Source: Paracoccaceae bacterium (lineage in GTDB: Bacteria > Pseudomonadota > Alphaproteobacteria > Rhodobacterales > Rhodobacteraceae). From it: a stretch of DNA of 35,315 bases. The stretch covers positions 12,902 through 48,216 of the forward strand of contig JAGRDO010000019.1 in assembly GCA_020447005.1 (NCBI GenBank), written 5' to 3'. The position numbers were made by a program, and so were the translations under genes. How positions within the stretch are numbered: position 1 is the stretch's first letter; the number at the start of each line of letters is the position of its first letter. Shown here one piece after another: positions 5,233 through 24,239 of this stretch. The notes under the pieces are model-generated. The model was not told the origin of the DNA, did no database searches, and saw nothing but the letters and a program-made list of their open reading frames with translations.

Positions 5233-6075
5233 TCAGCACACCGTTTGAAAACGCTCGACAATTATTCCGAGAACTTCGTCCGGTGGCCGCTTCCACCAAT
5301 TGTCCGCCGAAAAAATCTCGACTTCGCACGGGCCCTTGTATCCGGCGTCTTCCACGGCGCGACGGAGGGATTTCAGGTCGGCTACACCATCGCCCATCAT
5401 CCCGCGGTCGAGCAGCATGTGAGATGTGTCTTCCAACCAGTCGCAAAGGTGAAAGCCAAAGATGCGACCGGTTGACTCCTTGATGGCCGCGGGCAACGTC
5501 CGATCCCACCACACGTGGTAGACATCGATGGCGATACCCACATTGGGCGCATCTATTTCGCGACAGATCTCCAGGGCGTCCCGCACGGTGAAGAGACAGG
5601 TCCGGTTGCCGCCAAACATGGGGTTGAGCGGCTCAAGCGCCAGTTTGATGCCGGTTTGCACCGCATATTCCGCATGGTGGGCGACCCGTTCGGTCAACCG
5701 TTTCCGGCTGTCTTCCAAACCCAAGGTCCCCGGCTCCGTACCACCGGTCACGATCGTCAGGGAAGGCGCGCCAAGCTCTGCGGCCAAGTCGATCGAAGCC
5801 CTGATTTCGTCGTCGCTTCCGGCCTCGCGACCGGTCAGGTACGGCGTGCGGCACAGGCCGGCGACTTCCATTCCTGCGGCACGCACGCGATAGCCGATCT
5901 CGAACGCGCGGGTTCCGAGTTCGCGACGCCAGAAGACAATGCCGCCATAACCGCGTGCCGCGCAGGCGTCGATCACCTGTTCAGGGGACCAGCCTGCCCC
6001 TTGCCCCTCAAGGTTATGCCCCAGCGTGGCCGTGTTCAGCGCAAGGGCAGAGCGATCCTTTGAAAAATCCCGCAT
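5233..6075 (-). CDS. Sugar phosphate isomerase/epimerase-like TIM-barrel protein
   Basis: A 280-residue protein of the xylose isomerase-like (AP_endonuc_2) superfamily. Such proteins are divalent-metal TIM barrels that isomerise, epimerise or dehydrate sugars and related polyols. Metal-ligand type motifs are LALEPLNP (Glu), GIAIDVYHVWWD (Asp, His), FGFHLCDW (His) and PCEVEIFS (Glu). It is the last gene of a minus-strand operon, with its ATG overlapping the stop of the DUF993 gene (TGATG). The pairing with DUF993 suggests the two act on successive intermediates. The substrate cannot be assigned. Confidence 0.82.
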   Translation of the reverse strand: MRDFSKDRSALALNTATLGHNLEGQGAGWSPEQVIDACAARGYGGIVFWRRELGTRAFEIGYRVRAAGMEVAGLCRTPYLTGREAGSDDEIRASIDLAAELGAPSLTIVTGGTEPGTLGLEDSRKRLTERVAHHAEYAVQTGIKLALEPLNPMFGGNRTCLFTVRDALEICREIDAPNVGIAIDVYHVWWDRTLPAAIKESTGRIFGFHLCDWLEDTSHMLLDRGMMGDGVADLKSLRRAVEDAGYKGPCEVEIFSADNWWKRPPDEVLGIIVERFQTVC

Positions 6076-7226
6076 CAGCCAACGCCATGCATCGCCAGCA
6101 ACCTTTTCATCCGGGAAACGGCAAGGTCAGGGTCACGCAGCAATCCGCAGCTATCGGCAAGGCGGAACGCTTCGGTAAAATAGGGAAGCGGCCGCATCGC
6201 CTGCGCACCGTTCAGCATGACGAAATGGGTCTGGAACCCGTTCAGCCAGGCCATGAACACGACACCTGTTTTGTAGAATTGCGTCGGTGCACGGAAAATC
6301 AGCCGAGCGAGCGGAACTGTCGGGTCCAGCGTGGCCCGGAACCCTTCGATGTTCCCCTGCCCCAGTTGGGCCACCGCATGCGCCGCGGCAGGCGCCAGCG
6401 GATCGAATATCCCCAACAATGCGTGAGAAAAGCCTTGCCCGTCGCCCTGGATCAGTTCCGGATAGTTGAAATCGTCACCAGTATACATGCGCACGCCATC
6501 TGGCAGACGGCGGCGCAGCATGACTTCCTTGTCCTTGTCGAGCAGGGAAATCTTGATGCCATCGACCTTGGCGGCATTGGCTTCGATAATGGCGACGACC
6601 GTTTCCAAGGCGCTGTCGAAGTCGCTGCTGCCCCAATACCCGGCAAGGGCGGGGTCGAACATTTCGCCCAGCCAATGCAGGATCGCGGGGTGGTCACAGG
6701 CGTTCAGAAGCTGACTGTATAACGCGATGTAGTCATCCGGCCCCGAGGCAACACGCGCCATGGCGCGACTGGCCATGAGGATTACCCGCGCGTCCAGTGC
6801 CTGTATCGCGTCAAGCTGTTCCATATAGGCGCGCCTGACGTCTTCGACGTCGCGCGCCGCAGACGGGTCCAGATGATCGGTGCCGCAGCCGTTGGCGACC
6901 AGAGCATCGGGCAGTTCAGACCGCGTCCGGCGGATAAGTTCCAGCGCGCCGTTCCAGTCCAGCCCCATGCCGCGCTGTGCCGTGTCCATTGCCTCGGCGA
7001 TGCCAAGGCCCAGCCCGTGGAGATGATGGCGGAAGCGCATCGTCGCTTCCCAGTCGACCGTCGCGGGGCCGGACGGGTCATTGCCGGTGAACGGATCGGC
7101 AACGACATGTGCCGCCGAATACACGATGCGAGCCGGATCAGCGGGAAGCCTTGCTTCGGGCAGAGGCTGGCCGACAAGCGTGTAGTCGTTCAATTTGCCG
7201 GTGCCATCGGGAAGAGCAATTTTCAT
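6075..7226 (-). CDS. DUF993 family, dihydrodipicolinate synthase-like aldolase
   Basis: A 383-residue protein of the DUF993 group, which sits in the dihydrodipicolinate synthase/N-acetylneuraminate lyase (class I aldolase) superfamily. The segment VDGIKISLLDKD carries a lysine in the position expected for the Schiff base on a barrel strand. The stretches RIVYSAAHVVADPF and NGCGTDHLDP are at the substrate end. No member has an activity known to me. It lies 12 bp after an SDR gene and overlaps the isomerase downstream. By context it would cleave or form a carbon-carbon bond in a keto intermediate produced by the upstream dehydrogenases; this is inference. Confidence 0.8.
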   Translation of the reverse strand: MKIALPDGTGKLNDYTLVGQPLPEARLPADPARIVYSAAHVVADPFTGNDPSGPATVDWEATMRFRHHLHGLGLGIAEAMDTAQRGMGLDWNGALELIRRTRSELPDALVANGCGTDHLDPSAARDVEDVRRAYMEQLDAIQALDARVILMASRAMARVASGPDDYIALYSQLLNACDHPAILHWLGEMFDPALAGYWGSSDFDSALETVVAIIEANAAKVDGIKISLLDKDKEVMLRRRLPDGVRMYTGDDFNYPELIQGDGQGFSHALLGIFDPLAPAAAHAVAQLGQGNIEGFRATLDPTVPLARLIFRAPTQFYKTGVVFMAWLNGFQTHFVMLNGAQAMRPLPYFTEAFRLADSCGLLRDPDLAVSRMKRLLAMHGVG

Positions 7227-7238
7227 GGCAAGGGTCCT

Positions 7239-8009
7239 TCAGAAGCGCGGAACAAGCATGCCGGCATCCGCCGATATGGCCTGTCCGGTCGTGTACGGAA
7301 ATTTTCCGGAAGCAAGCGAAGCAATGATGCCGCCCACGTCCTCGGGTTGCCCGACGCGCGGGATCAGGGTCAGGCCCGATTTTGCGCGGTCTTCATATTG
7401 TGCAATCACCGGCGCGGTCATTTCGGTGGCGATCAGGCCCGGTTGCACGTCGTAGACCGCGACGTTCTCGCGCCCCAGACGCACGGCCCAGACCTTGGAA
7501 GCCATCGCGGCGGCCGCCTTGGACACACAATATTCCGAACGGGGCTCGGCGACCGCGACAGCATTGGAAGAGGTGACGTTTACAACGCTGTGAAACAGCG
7601 CCGCATCACGTTCGCGGGCGACAAGGCGGCGGGCAAAGGCCTGGGTGAGGAAGAAACAAGCCTTCGTGTTCACCGCAAGGCAACGGTCATAGCTGGCCTC
7701 TGAAACGTCCAACGGGTCTCCACGCTGCATCACGCCGACGCCCGCGTTGTTGACCAATGTCGTCAGGGGGCCAAGCGCGTCTTCGATGTCGGCCAGGACC
7801 GCGTCGTGCCGCGCATGATCGGTCACATCAAACGGCGCGGCAACCACGCGGGCGCCGTGCGCCTTCACGGTCTCGACCGCCGCCCGAAGCTCGTCATCAT
7901 CGGCGGGGCCGTTAAGCGCGACGGCAAACCCCTCGCGGGCCAGCGCCACCGCACTTGCCAGACCGATGCCCCGGCTGGATCCGGTGATCAAGGCAACCTG
8001 CCCGCTCAT
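7239..8009 (-). CDS. Short-chain dehydrogenase/reductase (3-oxoacyl reductase-like)
   Basis: A 256-residue classical SDR. It has the nucleotide-binding TGSSRGIG (residues ~9-16), the NNAG motif, a catalytic serine in VNVTSSNAV and the YCVSK Tyr/Lys pair. The fold resembles 3-ketoacyl-ACP reductases. In this setting it could oxidise a hydroxyl next to a thioester or a sugar hydroxyl, NAD(P)-dependent and cytoplasmic. Its ATG overlaps the stop of the acyl-CoA dehydrogenase (ATGA), placing it second in the operon driven from 9151. Confidence 0.85.
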   Translation of the reverse strand: MSGQVALITGSSRGIGLASAVALAREGFAVALNGPADDDELRAAVETVKAHGARVVAAPFDVTDHARHDAVLADIEDALGPLTTLVNNAGVGVMQRGDPLDVSEASYDRCLAVNTKACFFLTQAFARRLVARERDAALFHSVVNVTSSNAVAVAEPRSEYCVSKAAAAMASKVWAVRLGRENVAVYDVQPGLIATEMTAPVIAQYEDRAKSGLTLIPRVGQPEDVGGIIASLASGKFPYTTGQAISADAGMLVPRF

Positions 8010-9151
8010 GACGCGGCTCCCTTGGCCAGCAATTCGCGCGCGATGATCATGCGCTGGATCTGGTTGGTGCCTTCGTAGATCTGGGTGATCTTGGCATCGC
8101 GGTACAGCCGCTCGACCTCAAATCCGCGGATATAGCCGGAGCCGCCGAAAACCTGCACGGCATCGGCAGTTCGCGCGACAGCCATATCCCCGGCAAAGCA
8201 CTTTGCCATGGAACAGTATTTCGTGGCGTCGGCGCCGCTGTCGATTTTCTGCGCGGCGTTCAGAACCAGCAGGCGGGCGGCCTCAACATCTTTTGCTATG
8301 TCGGCCAACAGCCACTGAACGCCCTGAAATTCCGAGATCGGCTTCTTGAACTGCTTGCGTTGCTGCGCATAATCGACAGCCGCCTCCAGTCCGGCCTGGC
8401 CGATCCCCACCGCCAACGCTCCAATTCCCACGCGGCCTTTGTCCAGCACGCTCATCATCATGTGAAAGCCCCGCCCTTCCTGACCCAGCAGGGATTCCGC
8501 GGGCAGTTGGACGTCATCGAAATTGAGCGCGCCGACCTGGCTGGCGCGCTGGCCCATCTTGTGTTCCTTGGGGCCGCGCGAAACACCCTTCGCATGAAGA
8601 TCGACAACAAAGATCGACATTCCACGGTGGCCGGCTTCCGGATCGGTGCGCGCCAGAACAAAGCCCACATCGGCGACGGGCGCGTTGTGGATCCAGATCT
8701 TGCCGCCATTGAGCACCCAGCCGCCGCCATCCTTCTTCGCGATGGTCCTGATCCCCGAGACGTCCGTGCCGGCCTCCGGCTCGGTAATGCAATAGGCGCC
8801 ACGCTGCTTCGCGCACAGAAGCGGGACGAGCCATTGCCCCCGCTGCGCATCGGTGCCGTGCTTCACCAGCAGGGTGGAAAGAAGTTCGACCAGCCCGCAT
8901 TGATCCGCGACGCTGGCATAGCCGCGCGACAGTTCCTCCATGACAAGCGCATAGGTGACAGTATCGAAGCCCGGGCCGCCCATGTCTTCGGGGACACCGA
9001 TGCCAAACAGCCCCAATTCGCCCATCTGGTCGTAAATTTCGCGCGGAAAGCGTTCTTCGCGATCAAGTTCCTCGGCAACGGGGCGGATGACATCCTCGGC
9101 GAATTGCCGCGTCATCTCACGCACCTGTTGATGGGTTTCAGTCAGAAACAT
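8006..9151 (-). CDS. Acyl-CoA dehydrogenase
   Basis: A 381-residue FAD-dependent acyl-CoA dehydrogenase, introducing the alpha-beta double bond in an acyl-CoA. Family signatures are ITEPEAGTDVSGIRT (flavin/substrate side), the GRGFHMMMSVLDKGR region and the C-terminal YEGTNQIQRMIIARELL with the catalytic glutamate. The ATG at 9151 (MFLTETHQQVREMTRQF) is preferred over upstream in-frame codons, because those fall inside the operator and promoter. It heads a four-gene operon (acyl-CoA dehydrogenase, SDR, DUF993, isomerase). It probably acts on the CoA thioester made by the CoA-transferase at 12761-14341; the chain is unknown but likely short or polar given the sugar-type neighbours. Confidence 0.9.
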   Translation of the reverse strand: MFLTETHQQVREMTRQFAEDVIRPVAEELDREERFPREIYDQMGELGLFGIGVPEDMGGPGFDTVTYALVMEELSRGYASVADQCGLVELLSTLLVKHGTDAQRGQWLVPLLCAKQRGAYCITEPEAGTDVSGIRTIAKKDGGGWVLNGGKIWIHNAPVADVGFVLARTDPEAGHRGMSIFVVDLHAKGVSRGPKEHKMGQRASQVGALNFDDVQLPAESLLGQEGRGFHMMMSVLDKGRVGIGALAVGIGQAGLEAAVDYAQQRKQFKKPISEFQGVQWLLADIAKDVEAARLLVLNAAQKIDSGADATKYCSMAKCFAGDMAVARTADAVQVFGGSGYIRGFEVERLYRDAKITQIYEGTNQIQRMIIARELLAKGAAS

Positions 9152-9164
9152 GGCGTCCCTCGCA

Positions 9165-9180
9165 GTAACTGGATAGTTAC
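9165..9180. promoter_or_regulatory. TetR-type operator, site 1
   Basis: A perfect 6-bp inverted repeat GTAACT-ggat-AGTTAC lies just upstream of the acyl-CoA dehydrogenase start and immediately downstream of its predicted -10. It is the best-matching member of a set of four sites (also at 9251, 14357 and 24347) with consensus rTAACy-N4-rGTTAy. Regulator assignment to the TetR gene at 24498 is inferred. Confidence 0.75.
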
Positions 9181-9208: not shown

Positions 9209-9250
9209 GGCTTTCATGCGGGTTGATTAATTCCCGGAAATATGCACTTT

Positions 9251-9266
9251 ATAACCAGATGGTTAC
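9251..9266. promoter_or_regulatory. TetR-type operator, site 2
   Basis: ATAACC-agat-GGTTAC is an inverted repeat with the same half-sites and spacing as site 1. It lies 16-31 nt before the aldo/keto reductase ATG at 9282, overlapping or following a weak plus-strand promoter (TTGATT at 9223-9228, AT-rich -10 around 9247-9252). Confidence 0.72.
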
Positions 9267-9281
9267 TTATGGGGGAATGAC

Positions 9282-10295
9282 ATGCAGCCGGACAGCAAAG
9301 TGAAATTCGGGCGCGTGGACCTGGAGGTTACACCTTTCGGCTTCGGCACAGCCCCGATCGGGAACATTTTCCGCGAGATCGACGAAGACACCTCTGATGC
9401 GATGATCCAGAAGGCATGGGCACAAGGCGTGCGGTACTTTGACACCGCACCCATGTACGGGCACGGGTTGTCGGAATTGCGTGCGGGCCATTCCCTGCGC
9501 TGGAAAGATCGTGACGCGTTCGTTCTGTCCTCGAAAGTGGGGCGAATTCTCAAGCCCGCCCGAAAGGCAGATATCGACTATGCGCCCTGGACGAATGCGG
9601 GCCGCTTCACGATGCATTTCGACTACAGCTATGATGGCACGATGCGCAGTTTCGAGGACAGCCTTCAGCGGTTGAACCTTGAGCGGATGGATATCTGCTT
9701 CATCCACGATATCGACGTGTTCACCCGTGGGGACGAACAGCCGGAAGTGTTCAGACAGGCCATGGACGGCGCATGGAAGGCACTTTCGGATCTTCGGGAT
9801 CAGGGGGTGGTCAAGGCCATCGGTGTCGGAGTGAATGAATGGGAGGTCTGCCACGCCGCCTTGCAGCAGCGGGACTTCGACTGTTTCCTGCTTGCGGGGC
9901 GTTATACTCTGCTGGAACAGGATGCGCTGAACGAATTCCTGCCGCTTTGTGAAGAACGTGGTGCTGCCGTCGTCGTGGGGGGCGGCTTCAATTCCGGGAT
10001 CCTTGCCACCGGGGCGAAGGAGGGCGCGAAGTACAACTACGCCCCTGCCCCGGCAGACATCATGGACAAGGTTCGCAAGATCGAAGCCGTTTGCGCCGTG
10101 TATGACGTGCCTTTGCCCGCCGCCGCGCTGCAGTTCGTGGTGGCGCATCCGGCGGTCCCGACATTCATGGCGGGAACAAGAACGGTGGAGCAGTTGCAGC
10201 AAAACCTGGCCTGGTTCAGCCACCCCATCCCCGATCAGTTCTGGACGGACCTGAAGGCAAAGGGCCTGCTGCGCGAAGACGCGCCAACGCCGTGA
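9282..10295 (+). CDS. Aldo/keto reductase, D-threo-aldose 1-dehydrogenase/L-fucose dehydrogenase-like
   Basis: A 337-residue NAD(P)-dependent TIM-barrel oxidoreductase. Catalytic tetrad positions are visible: Asp and Tyr in YFDTAPMYGHGLSE, Lys in VLSSKVGR and His in ICFIHDIDVF. The RGDEQPEVF segment and the GGGFNSGILATG loop resemble the bacterial aldose 1-dehydrogenase branch (L-fucose, D-arabinose) and pyridoxal dehydrogenases, which oxidise lactol C1 to lactone. The ATG at 9282 has GGGGGAA upstream. It is transcribed alone, divergently from the acyl-CoA dehydrogenase operon, with operators for each direction. This supports a sugar or polyol as the island's substrate. Confidence 0.84.
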   Translation: MQPDSKVKFGRVDLEVTPFGFGTAPIGNIFREIDEDTSDAMIQKAWAQGVRYFDTAPMYGHGLSELRAGHSLRWKDRDAFVLSSKVGRILKPARKADIDYAPWTNAGRFTMHFDYSYDGTMRSFEDSLQRLNLERMDICFIHDIDVFTRGDEQPEVFRQAMDGAWKALSDLRDQGVVKAIGVGVNEWEVCHAALQQRDFDCFLLAGRYTLLEQDALNEFLPLCEERGAAVVVGGGFNSGILATGAKEGAKYNYAPAPADIMDKVRKIEAVCAVYDVPLPAAALQFVVAHPAVPTFMAGTRTVEQLQQNLAWFSHPIPDQFWTDLKAKGLLREDAPTP

Positions 10296-10390
10296 CAGCG
10301 CGCATCCTTGGCTCAGGGCGCCACGCTTGCGTTCGACCCGCGCAATCGACACAGCGGGACCGGGCAGCGCGGGGACGGCCGTCTGATGGC

Positions 10391-11665
10391 CTAGGTCTGA
10401 GACCGGATCAGGATCGCCCGGAAATCATTGACGTTCGTGCCGGTCGGACCGGGCACGAAAAGATCGCCAACCGCGTCAAATGCGCCCCAGGCATCGTGCC
10501 GGGACAAGGCTGCGACGGGATCGATGCCAGCAGCGCGCATTCGCTCCGCGCTTTGCCCGTCCGCAAACGCCCCGGCATTGTCCTCTGACCCGTCAATCCC
10601 GTCGGTATCCGCAGCCAGCGCCGCGACACCGGTGGCACCTTCGATGGCCGAGGCAAACGCCAAAAGAAATTCGGTGTTCCGCCCGCCGCGCCCGCCTTCA
10701 TCGCGGATCGTCACGGTCGTCTCGCCTCCGGACAGCAAAACCACGGGTGCCGCAAAGGGGCGGCCCCTCGTGGCTGTTTCGCGTGCCATGGCGGCGTGGA
10801 CCTTGCCGACATCCCGCGCTTCGCCCTCGATGGCATCCGAAAGAATGACGCAAGGCACGCCCTGCCGTTCCGCTTCGCGCTGCGCGGCCTCAAGCGACAG
10901 GCAGGCCGAGGCGATGACTTTGGTTTCAACCCGCGCGAATACAGCATCATCCGGGTGTGGCGCCCTTGCAGATTCGCTCTCCAGATGCGCCCGGATCTTA
11001 TCAGGCAGCGCGATGCGATATGTCTCGATCAGATGGCGGGCCTCCTCAAGACCCGTCCCGGAAGGCACCGTCGGCCCCGAGGCGACCTCTGCCGGATCGT
11101 CCCCCGGAACATCCGACACCACCAGCGAAACAACCCGTGCCGGAAAGGCTGCGGCAGCCAATCGCCCGCCCTTGATCCGGCTGACATGTTTTCGGATCGC
11201 GTTCATCACTCCTATCGGGGCGCCCGAGCGCAAGAGAGAGGCATTAAGTGCCTGCTCGTCTTCCAGCGTCAGCCCGTCCGGAGGGGCCGGCAAAAGCGAG
11301 GACCCCCCGCCGCACATCAGCGCGACGACCAGATCGTCTTCGGTAAGGTTCGAGACCGCATTTATGAGCGCGGCGCTTGCCGCCAGCCCGGCACTGTCCG
11401 GCACGGGATGGGCCGCCTCCAAGACGCGGATGCGCTTGCACGGAACCGCATAGCCGTAGCGGGTGACCACAACGCCCTCGACAGGTTCCCCCCAAAGCTC
11501 TTCAAATGCGGCGGCCAATTGTGCGGCCCCCTTCCCCGCGCCGATCACGATCGTCCGCCCCTTGGGTCTTGCAGGCAAATTCGTGCACAGGGCTTTTTTC
11601 GGGTCCGCCGCCGCGACGGCTGCATTGAACAGGGAGATCAGGAACGATCGATCGTCAGGTGTCAT
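10391..11665 (-). CDS. Glycerate 2-kinase (MOFRL/GckA-TtuD family)
   Basis: A 424-residue glycerate 2-kinase of the MOFRL type, phosphorylating D-glycerate to 2-phosphoglycerate with ATP. Key features are the N-terminal VIGAGKGAAQLAAAFEELWG, the glycine-rich CGGGSSLLPAPPDGLTL, VVSDVPGDDPAEVASGPTVP and the C-terminal ADTDGIDGSEDNAGAFADG followed by GPTGTNVNDFR. The ATG at 11665 overlaps the Dabb stop (TGATG). As the last gene of the CoA-transferase operon, it implies that one end product of the pathway is glycerate (or hydroxypyruvate or tartronate semialdehyde reduced to it). Confidence 0.9.
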   Translation of the reverse strand: MTPDDRSFLISLFNAAVAAADPKKALCTNLPARPKGRTIVIGAGKGAAQLAAAFEELWGEPVEGVVVTRYGYAVPCKRIRVLEAAHPVPDSAGLAASAALINAVSNLTEDDLVVALMCGGGSSLLPAPPDGLTLEDEQALNASLLRSGAPIGVMNAIRKHVSRIKGGRLAAAAFPARVVSLVVSDVPGDDPAEVASGPTVPSGTGLEEARHLIETYRIALPDKIRAHLESESARAPHPDDAVFARVETKVIASACLSLEAAQREAERQGVPCVILSDAIEGEARDVGKVHAAMARETATRGRPFAAPVVLLSGGETTVTIRDEGGRGGRNTEFLLAFASAIEGATGVAALAADTDGIDGSEDNAGAFADGQSAERMRAAGIDPVAALSRHDAWGAFDAVGDLFVPGPTGTNVNDFRAILIRSQT

Positions 11666-11976
11666 CACAGCTCGATATCGCAAACAAAAACGCCCTCGGC
11701 GCCACCTTCTAGGCACGCGACAATATCTGCCCCGATTGCCTGATGCCCTTCGTCAACGAGATAGGCATCCCGTGCGGCGGCATCACGGAAATCGAACCAG
11801 AACATGTCCAGAAATCCACGGACCAGCGGCGTTTCGACCGACACGTTTTCGCGATGCGCAAACGCCTCGACGCCGTCAATGCGCGCGACAAGACCGGAAA
11901 GCCGCGCGTAGAGCGCTTGTTTTTCGCTTGAACCGACATCGTTGCGAAACCGCAAATGAACAAGGTGTCTGATCAT
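11665..11976 (-). CDS. Dabb (stress-responsive A/B barrel) domain protein
   Basis: A 103-residue dimeric alpha-beta barrel protein. The start MIRHLVHLRF, the middle LVRGFLDMFWFDFRDAAARDAYLVDEGHQAI and the terminal VFVCDIEL match Dabb proteins. Small Dabb proteins include hydrolase or cyclase-like enzymes and proteins of unknown function found in catabolic operons. It overlaps both neighbours (ATGA with enoyl-CoA hydratase, TGATG with glycerate kinase). The activity is unknown; an accessory isomerase, lactonase-like or intermediate-binding role is possible. Confidence 0.8.
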   Translation of the reverse strand: MIRHLVHLRFRNDVGSSEKQALYARLSGLVARIDGVEAFAHRENVSVETPLVRGFLDMFWFDFRDAAARDAYLVDEGHQAIGADIVACLEGGAEGVFVCDIEL

Positions 11977-14356: not shown

Positions 14357-14372
14357 GTAACTAACTGGTTAT
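14357..14372. promoter_or_regulatory. TetR-type operator, site 3
   Basis: GTAACT-aact-GGTTAT is an inverted repeat with the same half-site pattern and 4-nt gap as sites 1 and 2. It lies 16 nt upstream of the CoA-transferase ATG and between the divergent CoA-transferase and aldo/keto reductase genes. On the minus strand, TTGATT, 17 nt and CATATT precede it, so it would cover the start of the CoA-transferase transcript. Confidence 0.7.
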
Positions 14373-14463
14373 TTGTAATATGCAGCCAAGTTACGTTTCA
14401 ATCAAGGCCGATGTTTCCGCCAATCCGTGCGCAGACATCCAAACACGATAGGGAGTGCACTCG

Positions 14464-16979: not shown

Positions 16980-18482
16980 TCAGCCGATCCAAGGCGAACG
17001 TTTGCCAATCTCGATATGCACCGATTTGACCTGCGTGTATTCCTCGACACCGTAGATGCCGGCCTCGCGCCCCCACCCGGATTGCTTGAAGCCGCCAAGC
17101 GGCAACTCCGGCCCCCCGGCCAGCGTGGTGTTGACCCAGAAACGCCCGGCCTGAACGCGGCGCGTAACCATCAGGGCCTTGTCGATGTTCTTGGTCCAGA
17201 CACTGGCTGCCAATCCGTATTCGGTATCGTTTGCGATGGCGATCGCCTCTTCGATCGTGTCAAACGGCATGATCGTCAGAACGGGACCGAAGATTTCTTC
17301 CCGGGCAATGGCCATGTCACGGGTTACGTCACCGAACAAGGTCGGCGAGATGAATTGACCGCGGCCGAAGTCCATCTGCTCGCCGCCGCAGATCAGCCGC
17401 GCGCCTTCAGCCTGCCCTTTCTCGATATAGGACAGGATCGTGCGGTTCTGCGCATCCGTGGTGATGGCGCCGATCTGCGTGGCTTCATCCAGCGGGTCCC
17501 CGACGACGACCCTGGCGAACTTGGCCCGCACCATCTGCGCGAACGCATCGGCAACCGACCGCTCGACAATCAGCCGCGACCCCGACACGCAGCATTGCCC
17601 GGTGTTGAACCCGATCCCGAACGCCACGCCATCGGCGGCATCTTCAAGATCGGCATCGGCAAAAACGATCTGGGGGTTCTTGCCGCCAAGCTCCAGCCCC
17701 AGTTTCTTGAAGTTGGTGCGGCCTGCCGCCTCTACAACGCGCCGCCCGACGGCGGTAGAGCCGGTGAAAGACAGCATATCCACATCCGGATGTTCGATCA
17801 GCGCTTGCCCTATGGTCGACCCCGAACCGGTCACCACGTTCATACATCCATCGGGAAGACCGGCCTCGGTCAGGATTTCGGCAAGGATCAATGTCGTGGC
17901 ACTGGTCACCTCGGAAGGTTTCGCAACTATCGTGCAGCCCGAGGCGAGGATGTAGGGCACACGCTCGCAAAGGATCAGAAAAGGGAAGTTCCACGGAGTG
18001 ATGATCCCGACGACGCCCACCGGTTCCCGGGTGACGAGGCCGAACATCCCGTCACCAAGGTTGTTGAAGCTGTCCCCGTGCAGCGACCGTGCCAGACCGC
18101 TCGCATATTCGAACATGTCGGCGCAGCCGCCGACCTCGGCCCGCGCCTGGCTGATCGGTTTTCCGTTTTCGAGCGTTTCGAAATACGCGATCTCCTCGGC
18201 GCGCTCACGGATCAGCGCCCCCGCGCGCAACAGAACGGCGGCGCGTGCCTGCCCGTTCAGGCCCGACCAGCGCCGGTCATCGAACGCGGTCCGCGCAACA
18301 GAAACCGCCATGTCGAGATCGTCCGCGGTGCATTTCGGGATCAGCGTTACCGGGACATCGTGACCGGGAGAATTCCGGCTGAACACCTCGCGCGGCCCCG
18401 CAGGAACGAAGGCCCCGTTGACATAGAATCCGAATTCGCGCGGGCTGACTGGCAGAGAAAGCCGGGTGCTGGTTTTGTCCAT
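16980..18482 (-). CDS. NAD(P)-dependent aldehyde dehydrogenase
   Basis: A 500-residue ALDH superfamily enzyme oxidising an aldehyde to a carboxylate. Catalytic residues are Asn165 (TPWNFP), Glu264 (LGLELGGKNP) and Cys298 in GQCCVSGSR, with cofactor-loop FTGSTAVGRRV. The ATG at 18482 is supported by GGAGTG 7 nt upstream. It lies between the Zn-alcohol dehydrogenase (55-nt gap) and the GMC oxidoreductase (44-nt gap) in the same leftward operon, so it probably uses the aldehyde product of one of them. It resembles betaine/gamma-aminobutyraldehyde or generic sugar-aldehyde dehydrogenases; specificity cannot be read from sequence. Confidence 0.91.
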   Translation of the reverse strand: MDKTSTRLSLPVSPREFGFYVNGAFVPAGPREVFSRNSPGHDVPVTLIPKCTADDLDMAVSVARTAFDDRRWSGLNGQARAAVLLRAGALIRERAEEIAYFETLENGKPISQARAEVGGCADMFEYASGLARSLHGDSFNNLGDGMFGLVTREPVGVVGIITPWNFPFLILCERVPYILASGCTIVAKPSEVTSATTLILAEILTEAGLPDGCMNVVTGSGSTIGQALIEHPDVDMLSFTGSTAVGRRVVEAAGRTNFKKLGLELGGKNPQIVFADADLEDAADGVAFGIGFNTGQCCVSGSRLIVERSVADAFAQMVRAKFARVVVGDPLDEATQIGAITTDAQNRTILSYIEKGQAEGARLICGGEQMDFGRGQFISPTLFGDVTRDMAIAREEIFGPVLTIMPFDTIEEAIAIANDTEYGLAASVWTKNIDKALMVTRRVQAGRFWVNTTLAGGPELPLGGFKQSGWGREAGIYGVEEYTQVKSVHIEIGKRSPWIG

Positions 18483-18537: not shown

Positions 18538-19563
18538 TCAGGCCGCCAGGACGATCTGAGTCTTGAGATCCTCCGGGCGATCCGGGATTGTCTCAAAGGC
18601 GGTCTGGATCTCTGCCAGCGGAAACCTTGCCCGCGTGAAGGGCTCGGTCCGGATGCGGCCATGCGCAAGAAGGGTCAGGGCATCGTGCATATCCTGACCC
18701 ATCCCAGCGACAGACCCTTTGACAGAGTTTTCCCGCAAGATGGTTTCAAGGATCGGCAGCGCCAGTTTTTCTTCGGGCCCTGTCAACCCGAAGGCGGCAA
18801 GGTGCCCGCCCTTGCGCATCAGACGCAGCGCCATGTGGTAAAGCGCGGTGTTGCCGACGCTTTCGATCACGACATCCGCGCCGCGCCCGCCCGTGGCGTC
18901 CATGACGGCGTGTTGCAACCGTTCCGGATCCGACACACCGATATCGGCACCGCAATCAAGCGCCATCTGCACCCGCGCCCTGGAAAGATCGGTGACGATG
19001 ATCGGCGCGGCACCGATGGTCCGAAGCAGTTGCACATGCATATTCCCGATTGGACCGGCCCCCATGACGACGGCCGACTGGCCAAAGGTCACGTTTGCCT
19101 TGCGCGCCGCGCGCACCACGCAGGCCAGAGGTTCGGTCAGGGCGAGCGTATCGAACGGCACATGGTCGGGCGCGGGGATCACAAGCCGGGCCGGCACAAC
19201 GATGTAGTCGGCAAAGGCGCCGTCCATCGTTATCCCCATCTGCCGCATGTCCGGGCAATTGAGGATCTCGTTCTTGCGGCACCAGAAGCAGCGGCCACAT
19301 CCGATGTTCATGTCGACCACCGCCTTGCCGCCCACATGCAACCCGGTCACGTCCGCCGCCACCGCCGCGACGGTGCCGGTAAATTCGTGACCCGGGATCA
19401 TAGGCAGGCTGTCAGCGGCATAGTGACCGTTGAAGATATGAAGGTCTGTCCCGCAGATCCCGACGTGCTCCACCTTGATCAACGCCTCACCCGGTCCGGG
19501 CTTGGGGATCGGGCGTTCTTCGATCTCGAAACGCCCGGGCGTGACGAGGACGGCCGCGCGCAT
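18538..19563 (-). CDS. Zinc-dependent alcohol/polyol dehydrogenase (MDR family)
   Basis: A 341-residue medium-chain dehydrogenase. Catalytic zinc ligands are in GICGTDLH (Cys), PGHEFTG (His, Glu) and LTEPLACV. The structural zinc lobe GCGRCFWCRKNEILNC has all four cysteines. The Rossmann motif is GAGPIGNMHVQ. It resembles sorbitol/L-threonine/galactitol dehydrogenases that oxidise a secondary hydroxyl of a polyol. The ATG at 19563 overlaps the stop of the permease gene (TGATG); a GTG one codon earlier is possible. As part of the importer operon it probably acts early on the imported compound. Confidence 0.9.
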   Translation of the reverse strand: MRAAVLVTPGRFEIEERPIPKPGPGEALIKVEHVGICGTDLHIFNGHYAADSLPMIPGHEFTGTVAAVAADVTGLHVGGKAVVDMNIGCGRCFWCRKNEILNCPDMRQMGITMDGAFADYIVVPARLVIPAPDHVPFDTLALTEPLACVVRAARKANVTFGQSAVVMGAGPIGNMHVQLLRTIGAAPIIVTDLSRARVQMALDCGADIGVSDPERLQHAVMDATGGRGADVVIESVGNTALYHMALRLMRKGGHLAAFGLTGPEEKLALPILETILRENSVKGSVAGMGQDMHDALTLLAHGRIRTEPFTRARFPLAEIQTAFETIPDRPEDLKTQIVLAA

Positions 19564-20504
19564 CACTTCACGATCCTCATCTTGGAGCGGTCGATGGTCA
19601 TGGCGATGGCGACGATCAGGATGACGCCGAAGATCATCTGCTGCATCGTGGCATCGACATCGAGATAGACCATCGCCGAACGGATCACGACCACGATCAA
19701 CGTACCCACCAGCGTGTTGATGACCCCGCCGACGCCGCCGGTCAGGGGCGTTCCGCCGACCAGCACGGCCACGATCGCAAGGATGAGAAAGCCATTCGCA
19801 AGGTTCGCATCACCGCCCGAGAGTTTGACCGAAAACATCAGCCCGGCAATCGCGGCAAAGGTGCCCGACAGCGCAAAGGCAAGGATCTTGATCTTGTCCA
19901 CCTTCAGACCCGATGCCACCGCCGCCAGTTCGCCCGCGCCCACCGCCTTCAGCGCGCGGCCAAATGTTGTTCGGGTCTGAAGAAACCACGCAATGGCCAG
20001 CAAGATACCCGCGATAACCAGCTCATGGGGCACGCCCGCGGTATTTCCGAACATCCAGCCAAAACTGGCGTCCCGGGCCTCGGCATTCATGGAAAGCGCG
20101 CGTTCGCCTGACAGAAAGCGTGCGCCGGACAGAGCAATGAAACCCATGGCAAGCGTTGCAACGAAGGACGGCACGAACTGACGGGTGGTGATCCATCCCG
20201 AAATGGCACCGATTGCGAAACCGGCTCCGATACAAAGCAAAGAGACGAAGATCCCGTATTGCACCAGATATACGGTCGCAACCACGGTGACGAGGTTGGC
20301 GACCTGCTGCATCGACAGGTCGATGCCACCGATATAGATGGCAAAGGTCATCCCCAAAGCCATGATGAAAAGCGGCACGATATCCGCCACCAGCTGGACG
20401 AGACTGGCCGGGTTCAGAAAGGAGGGGTTGATCGCCCCGACCACAAGAACCAGCGCGGCCAAAGTGATCCACGGGAAATACGGCTTGAGTTTTTCGAGCG
20501 ACAT
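19563..20504 (-). CDS. ABC transporter permease, monosaccharide type (RbsC-like), first copy
   Basis: A 313-residue inner-membrane permease with about 8-10 hydrophobic segments, belonging to the branched-chain/ribose (BPD_transp_2) family. Characteristic regions are AIYIGGIDLSMQQVANLV, the GWITTRQFVPSFVATLAMGFIALSG region (shown in two parts in the family) and FLILAIVAVLVGGTPLTGGVGGV. It lies 11 bp after the ATPase gene and overlaps the alcohol dehydrogenase start. Together with the permease at 22032-23030 it would form a heterodimeric channel. Confidence 0.9.
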   Translation of the reverse strand: MSLEKLKPYFPWITLAALVLVVGAINPSFLNPASLVQLVADIVPLFIMALGMTFAIYIGGIDLSMQQVANLVTVVATVYLVQYGIFVSLLCIGAGFAIGAISGWITTRQFVPSFVATLAMGFIALSGARFLSGERALSMNAEARDASFGWMFGNTAGVPHELVIAGILLAIAWFLQTRTTFGRALKAVGAGELAAVASGLKVDKIKILAFALSGTFAAIAGLMFSVKLSGGDANLANGFLILAIVAVLVGGTPLTGGVGGVINTLVGTLIVVVIRSAMVYLDVDATMQQMIFGVILIVAIAMTIDRSKMRIVK

Positions 20505-20515
20505 ATCCGGATACC

Positions 20516-22021
20516 TCAGATCATATGGTGGACAAGGTCATAGAGCGAAGGCTTGTCGCCCGGCGACCCGTCAAATCGTTTCTGGAATTCCCCGTCTTTC
20601 AGAACAAGGATCGTGTGGCTGAGACCGATGGCTTCCTCCAACGTGTCGGCGACCAGCACGATCCCCGCACCGTCGTCACACATTTCCCGGATCATGTCGT
20701 AGACGTCTTCCTTGGCCCCGATATCCAACCCGCGCGTCGGGTGATCCAGCAAGAAGATGTCGGACCCGCCAGACCGCCATTTGGCCAGAACCACCTTCTG
20801 CTGGTTGCCGCCCGAAAGGCCGCCGCAGTCCTTGTAGACATCGGGTGTCTTGATCGAGAGGCGTTTGATCCAGTCCTCGGCAAGGGCCTTTTCCTCGGCA
20901 ATTCGCAGAACACCGTTCGACGCGTAGTTCCCCATCTGGCTGAGCGTCATATTCTCATAGACATTCATGCCGTTGACGATGCCCTCGACCTTCCGCTCGC
21001 GGGGGACGTAGCCGACACCGCGCGCCACGGCCTCTTGCGCGTTGGCGCGATCAAAGGGTTTGCCTTTGACCTCCACCCTGCCCGTGCTTGGCTTCTCCAG
21101 TCCAAAGATCGTGCGCAGGATCGCTTCGCGCCCGGATCCCTCTGTTCCGACCAGACAAAGGACCTCTCCGGGATGCAGATCGAACGAGATTTCGCTGTAT
21201 TTTCCGGCCAGGCTCACGCGATCGAACCGGACCAATGATCTGCTTTGATCGTAAGGCCGTTGCTTTTGTTCCCGATAGTACTGCTTGTCGACGTCACGGC
21301 CGACCATCTTGTGCTGGATCGCATCGATATTCGCCTCGTCATGCGTGACGACATCGACGACTTCGCCGTCTTTCATCACATAGATCCGGTCGGACAGTTC
21401 CAGCACTTCATCCATGCGGTGCGACACAAAGATGAACGACGCCCGGCTGGTCAACTCGCGCACCAGAGAGAACAGAAGTTCGACCTCTTCCTTGGCCAGA
21501 ACCGAGGTCGGTTCGTCCAGCAGGATCACCAGATCGCCTTCGATACGCTCCTCGAGTGTCAGCACCTTGGCCAGTTCGACGAGCTGGCGCTGCGCAAAGG
21601 ACAGCTTTGACGTCACCGTGGCCGGGTCGATGGCCAGTTTGACCTTGCGCAACTGATGCCGCGCGGCTTCGGCCATCGCCGCCCAGTTGATCACGCCAAA
21701 GCGCACGAACTGCTTTTCGAACCCGAGAAAGATGTTCTCCATGACGGTCAGGTTCGTGATCAGGGATTGCTCCTGAAACACCATCCCGATGCCGTGATCC
21801 ATTGCCTGACGGGGGTTCTGGAACCGGACGGGCTTGCCATCGATGGTGATCGTGCCACCATCTGGCTGGTAGGCCCCGTAGATCACTTTCATGAGGGTGG
21901 ATTTACCGGCGCCGTTCTCGCCCACCAGCCCGACGATCTCGCCCCGTCCGATCTTGAAATCCACGGCCTTGAGCGCGTGAACGCCGGGGAATTTCTTGTC
22001 GACCTTGTTCAGTTGGTACAT
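20516..22021 (-). CDS. ABC transporter ATP-binding protein, double cassette sugar type (RbsA/MglA-like)
   Basis: A 501-residue tandem ATPase energising the importer. The first cassette has canonical Walker A GENGAGKST (Lys40), a degenerate signature KLSFAQRQLVEL and Walker B VILLDEPTS. The second has a degenerate P-loop GTEGSGREA with no lysine, intact signature LSGGNQQKVVLAKW and Walker B FLLDHPTRGLDIG, where His stands in place of the catalytic Glu. A weakened second P-loop is normal in this family; the Glu-to-His change is noteworthy. The start ATG at 22021 is 10 bp after the second permease. Length is typical (about 500 aa). Confidence 0.92.
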   Translation of the reverse strand: MYQLNKVDKKFPGVHALKAVDFKIGRGEIVGLVGENGAGKSTLMKVIYGAYQPDGGTITIDGKPVRFQNPRQAMDHGIGMVFQEQSLITNLTVMENIFLGFEKQFVRFGVINWAAMAEAARHQLRKVKLAIDPATVTSKLSFAQRQLVELAKVLTLEERIEGDLVILLDEPTSVLAKEEVELLFSLVRELTSRASFIFVSHRMDEVLELSDRIYVMKDGEVVDVVTHDEANIDAIQHKMVGRDVDKQYYREQKQRPYDQSRSLVRFDRVSLAGKYSEISFDLHPGEVLCLVGTEGSGREAILRTIFGLEKPSTGRVEVKGKPFDRANAQEAVARGVGYVPRERKVEGIVNGMNVYENMTLSQMGNYASNGVLRIAEEKALAEDWIKRLSIKTPDVYKDCGGLSGGNQQKVVLAKWRSGGSDIFLLDHPTRGLDIGAKEDVYDMIREMCDDGAGIVLVADTLEEAIGLSHTILVLKDGEFQKRFDGSPGDKPSLYDLVHHMI

Positions 22022-22031
22022 CGAACCGCCC

Positions 22032-23030
22032 CTATTTCACAAAGCTGATGGATTTGCGGTCGGTCGACAGAATGACGGCAAGGATCACAAGAATGCCCAA
22101 GACGCCGTCTTGCACGTATCCGGGAAGCCCGATCACAACCATGCCATTGCCGATGACAAAGACGATCAGCACACCCACGAGGGTGTTCCAGACCCCGCCG
22201 AGCCCCCCCCACAACGCAGTACCACCCACAACCACCGCAGTGATGGACAGGAACATGAAGTTGTTGCCAGTCGCTGTTTCGGCAATCCCGATGCGGCCCA
22301 CTGCCAGCAACGCGCCAACTGAAAAGAACACACCGGCCAGCGTAAAGCCCAGGACGCGGACACGATTGACGTTCAGGCCCGATGCGATGGCAAGGTCTTC
22401 GCCCCCGCCCACTGCATAGAAGTTGCGGCCCAATGTGGTGCGGGTCTGAATAAACCACGCGACAAGCAGGAACAGACCCGCGACATAGACCATCAAGGGA
22501 AACCCGAGAAAGCGTTCGGTCAGAAGCGACCGGAAAAGTTCGTCTTCGATGCGAATGCGATCTCCGCCGGTCATCACCATGGCAAGCCCGGTGCCTACAA
22601 ATCCCATGGCGAGAGAGGCCATGAAAGACGGGATCCTGAGCTTGACGTGAACCAATCCGTTGATGAAGCCAAGCGCGGCGCCGACAAGCATCGCGACAGG
22701 CAACGCCAACCAAGCCCAACTGGCCAGGGTACCGCCTAGCCAAAGAAAGCAGAATGCGAAGGCAACGGCGCAAACGGAAACCGTGCCTTCCATCGAAAGG
22801 TCGATCGATCCCATGATGATGACGAACGTGACGCCGATGGCCACCATAAGCGCGGGTGACGCGGCAATAAGGATGCGTGCGAAGTTCCGCGTCGACAGAA
22901 ACCGTGGCTCCATTGCCGCAAAGAAGGCGCAGAGCACGATCAACACCAGAAGTGGCGCCCACTTCACCAGCGTTTCGCGTCTTATGCGGGACCCCATGCC
23001 TGGCTTTTCGGCAGTTCGAGTTATGGCCAA
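22032..23030 (-). CDS. ABC transporter permease, monosaccharide type (RbsC-like), second copy
   Basis: A 332-residue BPD_transp_2-family permease. Visible segments are VIIMGSIDLSMEGTVSV, FINGLVHVKLRIPSFMASLA and MFLSITAVVVGGTALWGGLGGV. It starts with TTG (23030) rather than ATG: the strong site GGAGGA at 23037-23042 lies 6 nt upstream, while the first in-frame ATG (22997) has no such site and would remove 11 residues. It follows the binding-protein gene after a 96-nt gap that holds a strong hairpin. It pairs with the permease at 19563-20504, from which it differs in sequence. Confidence 0.88.
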   Translation of the reverse strand: MAITRTAEKPGMGSRIRRETLVKWAPLLVLIVLCAFFAAMEPRFLSTRNFARILIAASPALMVAIGVTFVIIMGSIDLSMEGTVSVCAVAFAFCFLWLGGTLASWAWLALPVAMLVGAALGFINGLVHVKLRIPSFMASLAMGFVGTGLAMVMTGGDRIRIEDELFRSLLTERFLGFPLMVYVAGLFLLVAWFIQTRTTLGRNFYAVGGGEDLAIASGLNVNRVRVLGFTLAGVFFSVGALLAVGRIGIAETATGNNFMFLSITAVVVGGTALWGGLGGVWNTLVGVLIVFVIGNGMVVIGLPGYVQDGVLGILVILAVILSTDRKSISFVK

Positions 23031-23036
23031 AGTGCT

Positions 23037-23042
23037 TCCTCC
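23037..23042 (-). promoter_or_regulatory. Ribosome binding site deciding a TTG start
   Basis: GGAGGA on the minus strand, 6 nt before the TTG at 23030. It is the strongest Shine-Dalgarno match in the gap and favours the TTG over the ATG at 22997. Confidence 0.65.
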
Positions 23043-23089
23043 CCAAAGCGCTTTTGCGTTACCGATGCGGCAACGGCTTTCCGGGTGAA

Positions 23090-23114
23090 CCAGCCGGACC
23101 AGTGGCCCGGCTGG
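23090..23114 (-). promoter_or_regulatory. Intercistronic hairpin between binding protein and permease genes
   Basis: An 8-bp inverted repeat CCAGCCGG/CCGGCTGG with a 9-nt loop that itself contains CCA-g-TGG starts 13 nt past the binding-protein stop. No T-tract follows on the minus strand, so it is more likely an mRNA-stabilising or partial-termination hairpin. Such elements keep binding-protein mRNA higher than that of the membrane components. Confidence 0.55.
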
Positions 23115-23126
23115 CCAGTTTCTTGG

Positions 23127-24239
23127 TTATTTGTAAACGATGGGTCCGTTCGACGGCCCCCAGAAGTCCGTCCAGTCGTAAGTCGGGACGCTGTCGAGAT
23201 AGTTCGCCTTGAACTCCAGCGCGTCGTCCGGCTGCACCATGATGGTCGGGCCGTAGAACTCGCGGTGCGCGTTCGGCTCTTCGGAGGGTTTGAAGGTGCC
23301 GATGGCCGCGTGATAGGCAAGGGCCGCCGTGATGCCGCCACCCCAATGCGGGTTGGTGAAGACAGTGGCGAGGATCTTGCGCTCTGAAACAAGTTGAACG
23401 GCCTGCGGGTTGCCGTCGTAGGAAACGATGGGCATATCCTCGATACCCTCGGCACGCAGCGCCTCAAGAACGCCATAAGCGATGGTATCGTTGGCGCAAT
23501 GCACGCCGGTGATCTCGTCTCCATAGCGGGTCAGGAAGGCGGACATCACCTGGTTGGCCTTCTGGGTGTCCCAGTCGGCCGGCTCGGCCGCCAGCAGTTC
23601 GACATCCGGATAATCCTTCAGCGCGTTCTTGAGACCGTTCAGCCGCTCGATGGCCGGGTTGTTGGACGCGATGCCGCCCAGATGCACGACGCCGCCCTTG
23701 CCGCCCATGGCGTCCAAAAGGATGCGCGCGGTCTGCTCGGCGGGGCCTTCGTCGGACCAGCTCATGTGGCTGACATAGTTGTCGCCGAAATCCCAAGGAT
23801 GGAGGTCATCGGTCTTGTTCCACAGGGTCGAGACATAGGCACCCGCCTCTGCCACGGCCTCGACCACGGGGCGTGCGTTCGGCGCGTCGTTGGTGTCGAT
23901 GGCCAGTGCCAGATTGCCACCGGTTTTGGCAAGGATCGCCTTGACGTCTGCCAGAGATTTCTCGGATGAGCCTTCATTGATCAGGTGGGTCAGCGCGTCT
24001 TTCGACATCCCGAGGCTTTGCACGAAAGCTTCGCCGCCGGAAACGATCTCGTTCCAATAGGGATTGGTGCGGTTGCGATAAGACCATGCGATGGTCGGAT
24101 CGGTCAATGCCGCCCGCGCCATGCCGGGCCCCAAGGCGCCCATGGCGGCAACGCCGCCAAGCCCATAGGCCGAGGCAAACAGGAAATTCCGACGGTTGAT
24201 CTTCTCTTTCTCGATGAAGTCCTTGATGAACGTAGACAT
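23127..24239 (-). CDS. ABC transporter substrate-binding protein, periplasmic sugar-binding type, Tat-like signal
   Basis: A 370-residue type I periplasmic binding protein (Peripla_BP_4-like). The N-terminus has a twin-arginine type signal, INRRNFLFASAYG (Arg16-Arg17), then a glycine/alanine-rich stretch ending in ARA near residues 41-43 as a cleavage site. The mature part shows two lobes, with AWSYRNRTNPYW near the start, GVVHLGGIASNNPAIERLNG and ITGVHCANDTIAYGVLEAL (NDxxA motif typical of ribose-binding-like proteins). It is first of the seven-gene operon running to 15331, divergent from the TetR gene. The ligand is unknown; aromatic residues in the N-terminal lobe suggest a sugar-like ring. 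Confidence 0.88.
   Translation of the reverse strand: MSTFIKDFIEKEKINRRNFLFASAYGLGGVAAMGALGPGMARAALTDPTIAWSYRNRTNPYWNEIVSGGEAFVQSLGMSKDALTHLINEGSSEKSLADVKAILAKTGGNLALAIDTNDAPNARPVVEAVAEAGAYVSTLWNKTDDLHPWDFGDNYVSHMSWSDEGPAEQTARILLDAMGGKGGVVHLGGIASNNPAIERLNGLKNALKDYPDVELLAAEPADWDTQKANQVMSAFLTRYGDEITGVHCANDTIAYGVLEALRAEGIEDMPIVSYDGNPQAVQLVSERKILATVFTNPHWGGGITAALAYHAAIGTFKPSEEPNAHREFYGPTIMVQPDDALEFKANYLDSVPTYDWTDFWGPSNGPIVYK

Follow-up and report, generated by a model that had tools for sequence, protein, structure and literature searches.

This work deals with a gene cluster of a Paracoccaceae bacterium (GCA_020447005.1, contig JAGRDO010000019.1), found in positions 5233–24239 of a stretch of 35,315 nucleotides which we call the window. 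It combines a sugar-type importer, enzymes of CoA chemistry and a protein of the family DUF993 (PF06187). In a literature search we found neither a function nor a relevant paper for DUF993 or PF06187, despite the crystal structure 4dnh of a family member; an earlier sequence-only reading of the region was right in knowing of no activity for it. Among described systems, a cluster in plasmid pAO1 of Paenarthrobacter (Arthrobacter) nicotinovorans also has an ABC importer, a GMC oxidoreductase, an aldehyde dehydrogenase, DUF993 and a glycerate kinase together, and its DUF993 is 50–51% identical to the one studied here. It differs in other features: a Gfo/Idh dehydrogenase replaces the pair formed by an acyl-CoA dehydrogenase (ACAD) and a short-chain dehydrogenase/reductase (SDR), GntR replaces TetR, and no CoA-transferase, hydratase or xylose-isomerase-like gene is annotated alongside. 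We take it to be the cluster of the reportedly published 'oxidative xylose-catabolic pathway'; its Gfo/Idh enzyme is said to prefer xylose, in work of Mihasan et al. from 2013.

The oxidative deoxyribonate pathways are another related case. According to Price et al. (2019, PMC6365646), the same route is followed with or without early CoA attachment: a sugar acid is oxidized, the resulting beta-keto acid (or the CoA ester of this acid) is cleaved, and glycerate kinase is important. In the same work the Klebsiella cluster has a CoA-synthetase, a 3-hydroxyacyl-CoA dehydrogenase, a thiolase, a CoA-transferase and a glycerate kinase. Sugar-acid chemistry is paired with CoA in this cluster, so that such a pairing has a precedent; the earlier reading had regarded sugar-type transporters as not normally combined with CoA chemistry of the beta-oxidation kind. 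A glycerate kinase (PF13660, PF05161) is also present in the window cluster. However, neither a beta-keto acid cleavage enzyme nor a thiolase is found among the cluster's Pfam matches (no thiolase search was made in the rest of its genome), DUF993 belongs to another Pfam family and ACAD would lengthen the front end. We infer that DUF993 takes the place of the deoxyribonate-type cleavage enzyme.

Solved relatives of two proteins of the cluster are found in Sinorhizobium meliloti 1021, in the group SMc04130, SMc04132 and SMc04133. SMc04130 (3ju2, 3qc0) is related to the xylose-isomerase-like protein, and SMc04132 (4dnh) is the closest solved relative of DUF993. From its name, 'putative oxidoreductase', SMc04133 would be a Gfo/Idh protein. 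No function was found for the three in the literature searched. In one study (PMC12542648), SMc04132 and SMc04133 show log2 changes of -1.69 and -3.65 in TY, in a phbC phaR mutant compared with phbC; this lower expression is a hint of a link between DUF993 and polyhydroxybutyrate control.

The window cluster is probably a recurring, co-regulated pathway, for which we found no description in the literature searched. We give about an even chance to a more detailed reading: the region would be a single catabolic regulon, controlled by TetR, for a small polyhydroxylated alcohol which is imported by a CUT2 transporter and degraded by a route that depends on CoA and on cleavage by DUF993. The block is compact, with about 18 neighbouring genes: 16 catabolic and transport genes were identified with Pfam and NCBIfam, plus a Dabb gene, and a divergent TetR is present. 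Every enzyme named in the sequence-only reading is found within the range; the Dabb gene (11665–11976) had been overlooked, and the TetR gene lies just outside. The importer has all the CUT2 features in Pfam: a Peripla_BP_4 binding protein, a double ABC ATPase and two BPD_transp_2 permeases. A sugar-type importer is tied to CoA chemistry, as had been claimed. Judged by eye in the translations, the catalytic motifs look intact in ACAD, the enoyl-CoA hydratase, SDR, GMC, the aldehyde dehydrogenase and the aldo/keto reductases.

The same cluster, or one that closely resembles it, is annotated in plasmids of Sagittula, Paracoccus versutus, Roseateles XES5, S. meliloti RCAM1115 and Rhizobium anhuiense. 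The Sagittula locus has Dabb and MaoC annotated and no glycerate kinase; in S. meliloti RCAM1115 GMC and aldehyde dehydrogenase are not annotated and a transposase is found nearby; R. anhuiense has a second GMC and a CUT1-type importer instead of CUT2. A genome of the same genus as the window (G016, L090) carries most of the cluster, as far as the contig end. Since the cluster recurs in other genera, it is not a chance neighbourhood, and its description as one unit is supported. Genes for electron transfer flavoprotein (ETF) beta/alpha come directly after the cluster in four of the five plasmid loci (Paracoccus, Roseateles, S. meliloti RCAM1115 and R. anhuiense), as expected of a working ACAD; in Roseateles and R. 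anhuiense an ETF-quinone oxidoreductase is also present. Of the 289 genomes sampled from the window's class, 25 carry DUF993 itself; it was also detected in Streptomyces, rhizobia, acetic acid bacteria and Pseudomonas.

We have compared 89 DUF993 loci: the window, the best 80 of at least 591 confirmed stretches in a contig scan (a plasmid scan gave 147 records), four plasmid loci and four relatives. The choice of the best 80 biases the set to close relatives of the window protein, so that the proportions given below are not population figures; near-copies (for example L015/L017, L069/L079 and the Bradyrhizobium group) make the counts not independent, and some loci end at contig ends. Genes were counted as present by tblastn identity, with thresholds of 55% for CoA-transferase and ACAD, 50% for GMC, 45% for aldehyde dehydrogenase and 40% for enoyl-CoA hydratase and SDR. 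Copies which have diverged beyond them are uncounted, such as CoA-transferases with 36–39% identity in several Pseudomonas and Burkholderiales loci.

The neighbourhood comparison, which had been suggested as a check, shows a recurring unit with two mutually exclusive front ends: ACAD is found in 36 loci, always with SDR, Gfo/Idh in 38, both in none and neither in 15. The 36 ACAD-type loci have the xylose-isomerase-like gene (34), GMC (27), CoA-transferase (24), aldehyde dehydrogenase (21), enoyl-CoA hydratase (18) and glycerate kinase (11), with ETF genes near 11–12 of them. DUF993 and ACAD are on the same strand in 35 and are separated by 0.77–0.91 kb, a gap of SDR size, in 34. The hydratase, a step in the route first proposed, is dispensable: half of these loci lack it near DUF993, although contig ends truncate some of them, and no PF00378 match was found in Gluconobacter G310, which carries the cluster. 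In the 38 Gfo/Idh-type loci we find the xylose-isomerase-like gene (36), an enolase-like protein (20), an NMT1 importer (14), two kinds of Bug proteins (12 and 6) and TctA (6), and TetR relatives at 28. At the thresholds used, none of them has GMC, aldehyde dehydrogenase, CoA-transferase, hydratase, ACAD or ETF; distant homologues are near a few (ACAD 26%, aldehyde dehydrogenase 34–37%, also SDR). No Gfo/Idh with at least 40% identity is found in the window or in any ACAD-type locus. DUF993 is thus the constant core that had been proposed, whereas its tie to CoA is not general. Importers differ widely among DUF993 clusters. Those of the NMT1 and tripartite tricarboxylate types are often acid carriers, which suggests that the Gfo/Idh-type loci import an acid and the ACAD-type loci, as here, make it from an alcohol. 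As a separate observation, the enolase-like protein of L081 (7290–8687) has 465 amino acids, lies beside Gfo/Idh and DUF993 and matches MR_MLE_C with 21.6 bits, below the cut-off.

A tree of DUF993, obtained with a quick method with SH-aLRT support and no bootstrap, separates the two types. One clade contains 42 rows (36 ACAD, 6 neither; support 99), the other 37 rows (31 Gfo/Idh, 6 neither; support 98); the remaining Gfo/Idh rows, from Streptomyces, pAO1 and Pantoea/Erwinia, fall outside both. To place the labels ACAD and Gfo/Idh on this tree, two changes or more are required. In a Rhodococcus plasmid an ACAD with 57% and a CoA-transferase with 37% identity are beside a DUF993 which groups with the actinobacterial ones; this does no more than hint that the CoA front end arose twice, because this DUF993 branch is long. 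The tree also has two sequences, from assemblies labelled Enemella (Actinomycetota; L007) and Frankia (L080), nested among Rhodobacterales and Bradyrhizobium; these assemblies are probably mislabelled or contaminated.

The second line of evidence is a palindrome close to GTAACYANNTRGTTAC, found at the starts of the ACAD, CoA-transferase and aldo/keto reductase operons and, in a weaker form, at the importer. Each of the three divergent regions of the block has it. The first region has GTAACTGGATAGTTAC (9165–9180), 13 nt upstream of the ACAD start as re-set by us, and ATAACCAGATGGTTAC (9251–9266), upstream of the aldo/keto reductase starting at 9282; the second has GTAACTAACTGGTTAT (14357–14372), between CoA-transferase and the other aldo/keto reductase; the third has the variant GTAACTAGTTAGTGCA with three mismatches (24347–24362, minus strand), between the binding protein and TetR. 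A window scan with GTAACYRRNTRGTTAC and up to three mismatches gave 10 strand-wise matches against 1.37 expected, a number reached in none of 100 shuffles, although palindromic sites are counted on both strands, which shuffled ones rarely are. The matches correspond to five places, four in the cluster and one outside it at 25908. The pattern TAACN6GTTA was found 3 times against 0.02 expected. When its own 3.5-Mb genome is scanned with one mismatch at most, three places appear, all of them in the cluster.

The motif is conserved in related loci. In a hand-picked list of 34, which covers 697 kb, there are 80 sites where shuffling gives a mean of 4.25; the other 55, with 949 kb, have 12. Of these 12, one is beside ACAD and 11 beside a TetR, Gfo/Idh or Bug-type transporter gene. 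A site is present in 30 of the 34, the exceptions being L013, L022, L030 and L070, while L012, L032, L033, L035, L038, L039 and L086 were placed among the other 55. For counts per gene we used the 36 ACAD-type loci defined by rule, 31 of which have a site. Upstream of ACAD the TAACN6GTTA pattern occurs in 28 of 34 cases, of CoA-transferase in 21 of 24 and of the aldo/keto reductases in 17 of 19 each. It is found once for GMC (26 cases), twice for the binding protein (10), once for TetR (15) and never for SDR (36), DUF993 (36), the xylose-isomerase-like gene (34), enoyl-CoA hydratase (17), glycerate kinase (11), aldehyde dehydrogenase (19) or zinc alcohol dehydrogenase (11). Positions which are not part of the search pattern are also conserved: Y at 6 and R at 11, each in 80 of 81 sites. 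A relaxed scan, with up to three mismatches of the 16-mer, finds the motif at 9 of 10 importers, against 28 of 600 shuffles and 44 of 600 random windows of the same loci, real sites included. It also finds it at TetR (13/15), aldehyde dehydrogenase (8/19) and GMC (2/26), with none at zinc alcohol dehydrogenase (0/11) or hydratase (0/17). The importer half-site, of the GTGCG or GTGCA type, is common to the window and three relatives.

Because operon starts share this palindrome, the cluster looks like one regulon. A separate expression of the operons, which would have spoken against a single pathway, is disfavoured as far as a sequence can tell. The TetR-family regulator (24498–25139, plus strand; TetR_N and TetR_C_29) would be the owner of the palindrome, judging from its proximity and conservation. 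In any case the motif delimits the set of genes to test.

The central protein, DUF993 (6075–7226, minus strand; Pfam 593 bits), was modelled with AlphaFold2 from 25 sequences (pLDDT 88). A Foldseek search with the model finds 4dnh first and then structures of dihydrodipicolinate synthase (DHDPS; 1o5k with E 1.8e-9 and TM 0.59 of the query/0.75), including the hydratase-aldolase 9frt among matches of this type. The model thus predicts a TIM barrel of the DHDPS superfamily, the class I aldolases of DHDPS and N-acetylneuraminate lyase (PF00701). Lys225, in strand 6 (221–227), is invariant in 27 of 27 DUF993 sequences and is kept as well by all nine divergent members compared, of which two belong to the 27; it is aligned with the lysine of DapA, as is GDD with the GED of DapA further along, in an hhalign alignment of weak probability (4.9%). 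Strand 5 has an invariant H184-W-L-G, with His184 aligned to the DapA tyrosine, and AMDTAQRG follows strand 2. DHDPS enzymes use the strand-5 tyrosine, and the GxxGE motif to bind the carboxylate. DUF993 differs from them by having His184 instead of this tyrosine and no GTTGE, by exceeding the matched DHDPS chains by about 90 residues and by forming its own Pfam family. The change of the tyrosine and the lack of GTTGE make an ordinary pyruvate-type aldolase unlikely, and the reaction could differ. The Schiff-base partner may reasonably be guessed to be a ketone remote from the carboxylate. A divergent DUF993 (44%) in a plasmid of Streptomyces sp. NBC_00557 (L100, 11998–13185) deserves a separate mention: it adjoins a 10-kb type I polyketide synthase gene and keeps Lys225 and His184, without the DDF motif.

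Acetic acid bacteria are informative about the cleavage step. We searched eight of their genomes with DUF993 loci of the ACAD-type clade; seven loci are of ACAD type and one (L012) ends at DUF993. Thiolase_C is found in two genomes, PF00378 in six and MaoC, above its cut-off, in one. In Gluconobacter sp. Gdi (G310, L018) there is a strong ACAD match at the cluster and no match to PF00378, MaoC or thiolase in the genome, so that ordinary beta-oxidation seems unavailable to it. That no thiolase match was found in six of the eight genomes suggests a non-thiolytic cleavage, and DUF993 is the best candidate of the cluster for the enzyme which breaks the C–C bond.

The pathway may then be visualized as follows. 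The CUT2 importer would take up a small polyhydroxylated alcohol, whose primary alcohol would be oxidized to an acid by GMC or the alcohol dehydrogenase together with the aldehyde dehydrogenase. CoA-transferase would form the thioester and may also reclaim CoA from a later intermediate; ACAD, the hydratase where present, and SDR would convert the thioester into a keto compound. Bacteria of the other type would use Gfo/Idh to produce the equivalent keto acid straight from an imported acid, without CoA, and both front ends would converge on DUF993. This protein probably cleaves a C–C bond by way of a Schiff base with Lys225 and so replaces a thiolase; next to it the xylose-isomerase-like protein would act, and glycerate kinase would convert the glycerate half into 2-phosphoglycerate. 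Other schemes, giving hydroxypyruvate or using a hydratase-aldolase reaction on a 4-oxo-2-enoyl-CoA, are possible. A broader proposal, rather doubtful in its entirety, is that DUF993 represents a C–C lyase of a new class, which acts through a Schiff base and splits 3-oxo acids or 3-oxoacyl-CoAs of polyhydroxylated compounds instead of a thiolase, and that the CoA and CoA-free front ends share it under related TetR regulators. If true, bacteria without a detected thiolase, such as several acetic acid bacteria, can run an ACAD pathway on a sugar-like alcohol. With front ends that exclude each other, a common motif and carriers without a thiolase match, the function of DUF993 becomes directly testable in tractable laboratory strains.

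Several observations weigh against this reading. DUF993 aligns poorly with DHDPS, and both the tyrosine and the GTTGE motif are missing. With two mismatches the own genome has 18 motif sites, against 32 for a reversed-pattern control; in the relaxed scan one upstream region of 36 reaches 2–3 mismatches for SDR and another one for DUF993; in the Gfo/Idh-type loci the motif is present at 8 of 38 only. ETF is not found among the identified ORFs of the window. Glycerate kinase is found in only 11 of the ACAD-type loci (some cut off), which makes glycerate uncertain as a product. L091, from the same genus as the window, has a third arrangement, of LacI type: CoA-transferase, hydratase, SDR, GMC and DUF993 coexist there, along with aldehyde dehydrogenase, a GMC-like oxidase, Dabb, LacI and glycerate kinase, without ACAD or the xylose-isomerase-like gene. 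SDR and glycerate kinase are annotated in the Rhodococcus plasmid, but tblastn finds no match there to those of the window. Finally, one of the six thiolase-free genomes (G316, Gluconobacter japonicus, L012) also lacks the cluster ACAD, its best ACAD match having E 8.7e-7, and is probably incomplete. When it is left out, thiolase is absent in five of seven and PF00378 in one of seven.

The order of the steps could also be different. SDR or Gfo/Idh might oxidize the imported compound, DUF993 would cleave it first, and GMC, aldehyde dehydrogenase, CoA-transferase, ACAD and hydratase would then degrade one fragment by ordinary beta-oxidation. The presence of DUF993 without CoA genes in loci of the Gfo/Idh and pAO1 types fits this split, as does the similarity of CoA-transferase and ACAD to short-chain enzymes. 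We consider it unlikely, given the common strand and nearly constant spacing of ACAD and DUF993 in the ACAD-type loci and the six of eight acetic-acid-bacterium genomes without a thiolase match.

The substrate might instead be cyclic: a polyhydroxylated cyclohexane or cyclohexene carboxylate or methanol, similar to quinate or a carba-sugar. Its ring would open after beta-ketoacyl formation, as in the logic of BadH/BadI. In NCBIfam, ACAD matches cyclohexane-1-carbonyl-CoA dehydrogenase second best (320 bits, cut-off 650), and a shikimate-dehydrogenase-like enzyme adjoins CoA-transferase and DUF993 in Paraburkholderia caribensis. But the top ACAD match is another family, all matches are far below their cut-offs, and importers vary widely from cluster to cluster, which leaves this substrate with a small probability. 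An oxidative pathway for xylose or another aldopentose, as for pAO1, with a Gfo/Idh sugar dehydrogenase and DUF993 as a DHDPS-like dehydratase or aldolase, appears slightly less probable again. In the plasmid GMC, AldH, Gfo/Idh, DUF993 and glycerate kinase follow one another, and its Gfo/Idh is 55% identical to our Gfo/Idh query; yet the window has no such gene with at least 40% identity, and there is no obvious place for ACAD and CoA-transferase on xylose. That unrelated operons are neighbours by accident, a view favoured by the three divergent promoter regions which divide the block, is very improbable: the same motif in all three regions and the recurrence across genera largely refute it.

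Some candidates for the substrate were dropped. NCBIfam gives no assignment, since among the matches listed all catalytic genes except SDR are below their cut-offs. Neither does the binding protein, whose closest solved relative (2rjo, presumably from Burkholderia phytofirmans) has only a secretion-signal name. Glucosylglycerol or glucosylglycerate would explain the glycerate kinase, but no glycosidase is found among the cluster's Pfam matches and the CoA chemistry would be left unexplained.

The genes of the block are arranged as follows. Except for the two aldo/keto reductases, those from the isomerase-like gene to the binding protein are on the minus strand; the reductases and TetR are on the plus strand. 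The xylose-isomerase-like TIM barrel (AP_endonuc_2, 5233–6075) is related to 3ju2, 3qc0 and 7vpf, whose PDB titles say 'sugar isomerase' at most. DUF993 is followed by SDR (7239–8009), which reaches 343 bits for PRK12745, '3-ketoacyl-ACP reductase' (cut-off 250), and by ACAD (8006–9151), of short-chain type; its start was moved from 9217 to Met23, close to where homology begins, and it has IYEG, which we take to be the catalytic glutamate motif. The aldo/keto reductase b (9282–10295) has a tetrad D, Y, K, H, seen by eye in the translation; its nearest NCBIfam is YdjG methylglyoxal reductase (91 bits, cut-off 550). A minus-strand ORF (9267–10352) without Pfam or NCBIfam match is read as its antisense. 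Next come the glycerate kinase of DUF4147+MOFRL type (10391–11665, likely start about 11665; PF13660 264 bits, PF05161 125.5 bits), the stress responsive A/B barrel protein Dabb (11665–11976, 103 aa; Pfam), enoyl-CoA hydratase (11973–12764; Pfam/NCBIfam), with GGGLELA and GQPEAGLG recognized by eye as what we presume to be its two glutamate motifs, and the fused CoA-transferase (12761–14341; Pfam/NCBIfam), whose nearest solved relative is YdiF. The aldo/keto reductase a (14455–15282) is DkgB-like (241 bits, cut-off 327). The prediction of two such reductases was correct; that one of them is aldose dehydrogenase-like is not supported, DkgB and YdjG being their nearest families, both below cut-off. 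Further on we find the choline-dehydrogenase-like GMC (15331–16935, likely start about 16935; 574 bits, cut-off 605), the aldehyde dehydrogenase, similar to betaine-aldehyde dehydrogenase (16980–18458, start approximate; NCBIfam below cut-off), and the zinc alcohol dehydrogenase (18538–19566; Pfam/NCBIfam). The importer, identified with Pfam, completes the block: permease B (19563–20504), ATPase (20516–22021), permease A (22032–23030) and binding protein (23127–24239). Overall, what had been observed in this region is confirmed and its interpretation is partly supported.

Some minor features may be added. A 115-nt repeat with 72% identity (19900–20014 and 22369–22483) corresponds to paralogous stretches of both permease genes. 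A comparison of flanks with empty sites gave no readable simple insertion site: NnrS and an HPP protein are on different contigs in the relative G014, which has two contigs. In the plasmid of S. meliloti RCAM1115 (L096, 4400–7889) no genes are listed where aldehyde dehydrogenase and GMC are expected, in a gene table which is incomplete, and an ISRm17 transposase follows this stretch; the DUF993 cluster may be decaying in this strain. Directly after the cluster in the plasmid of Sagittula sp. P11 (L002, 22043–31448) there are a degradative HMG-CoA reductase, a TRAP transporter, SDRs, a 3-hydroxyacyl-CoA dehydrogenase and a 3-keto-5-aminohexanoate cleavage protein (BKACE-type), possibly a mevalonate catabolic cluster.

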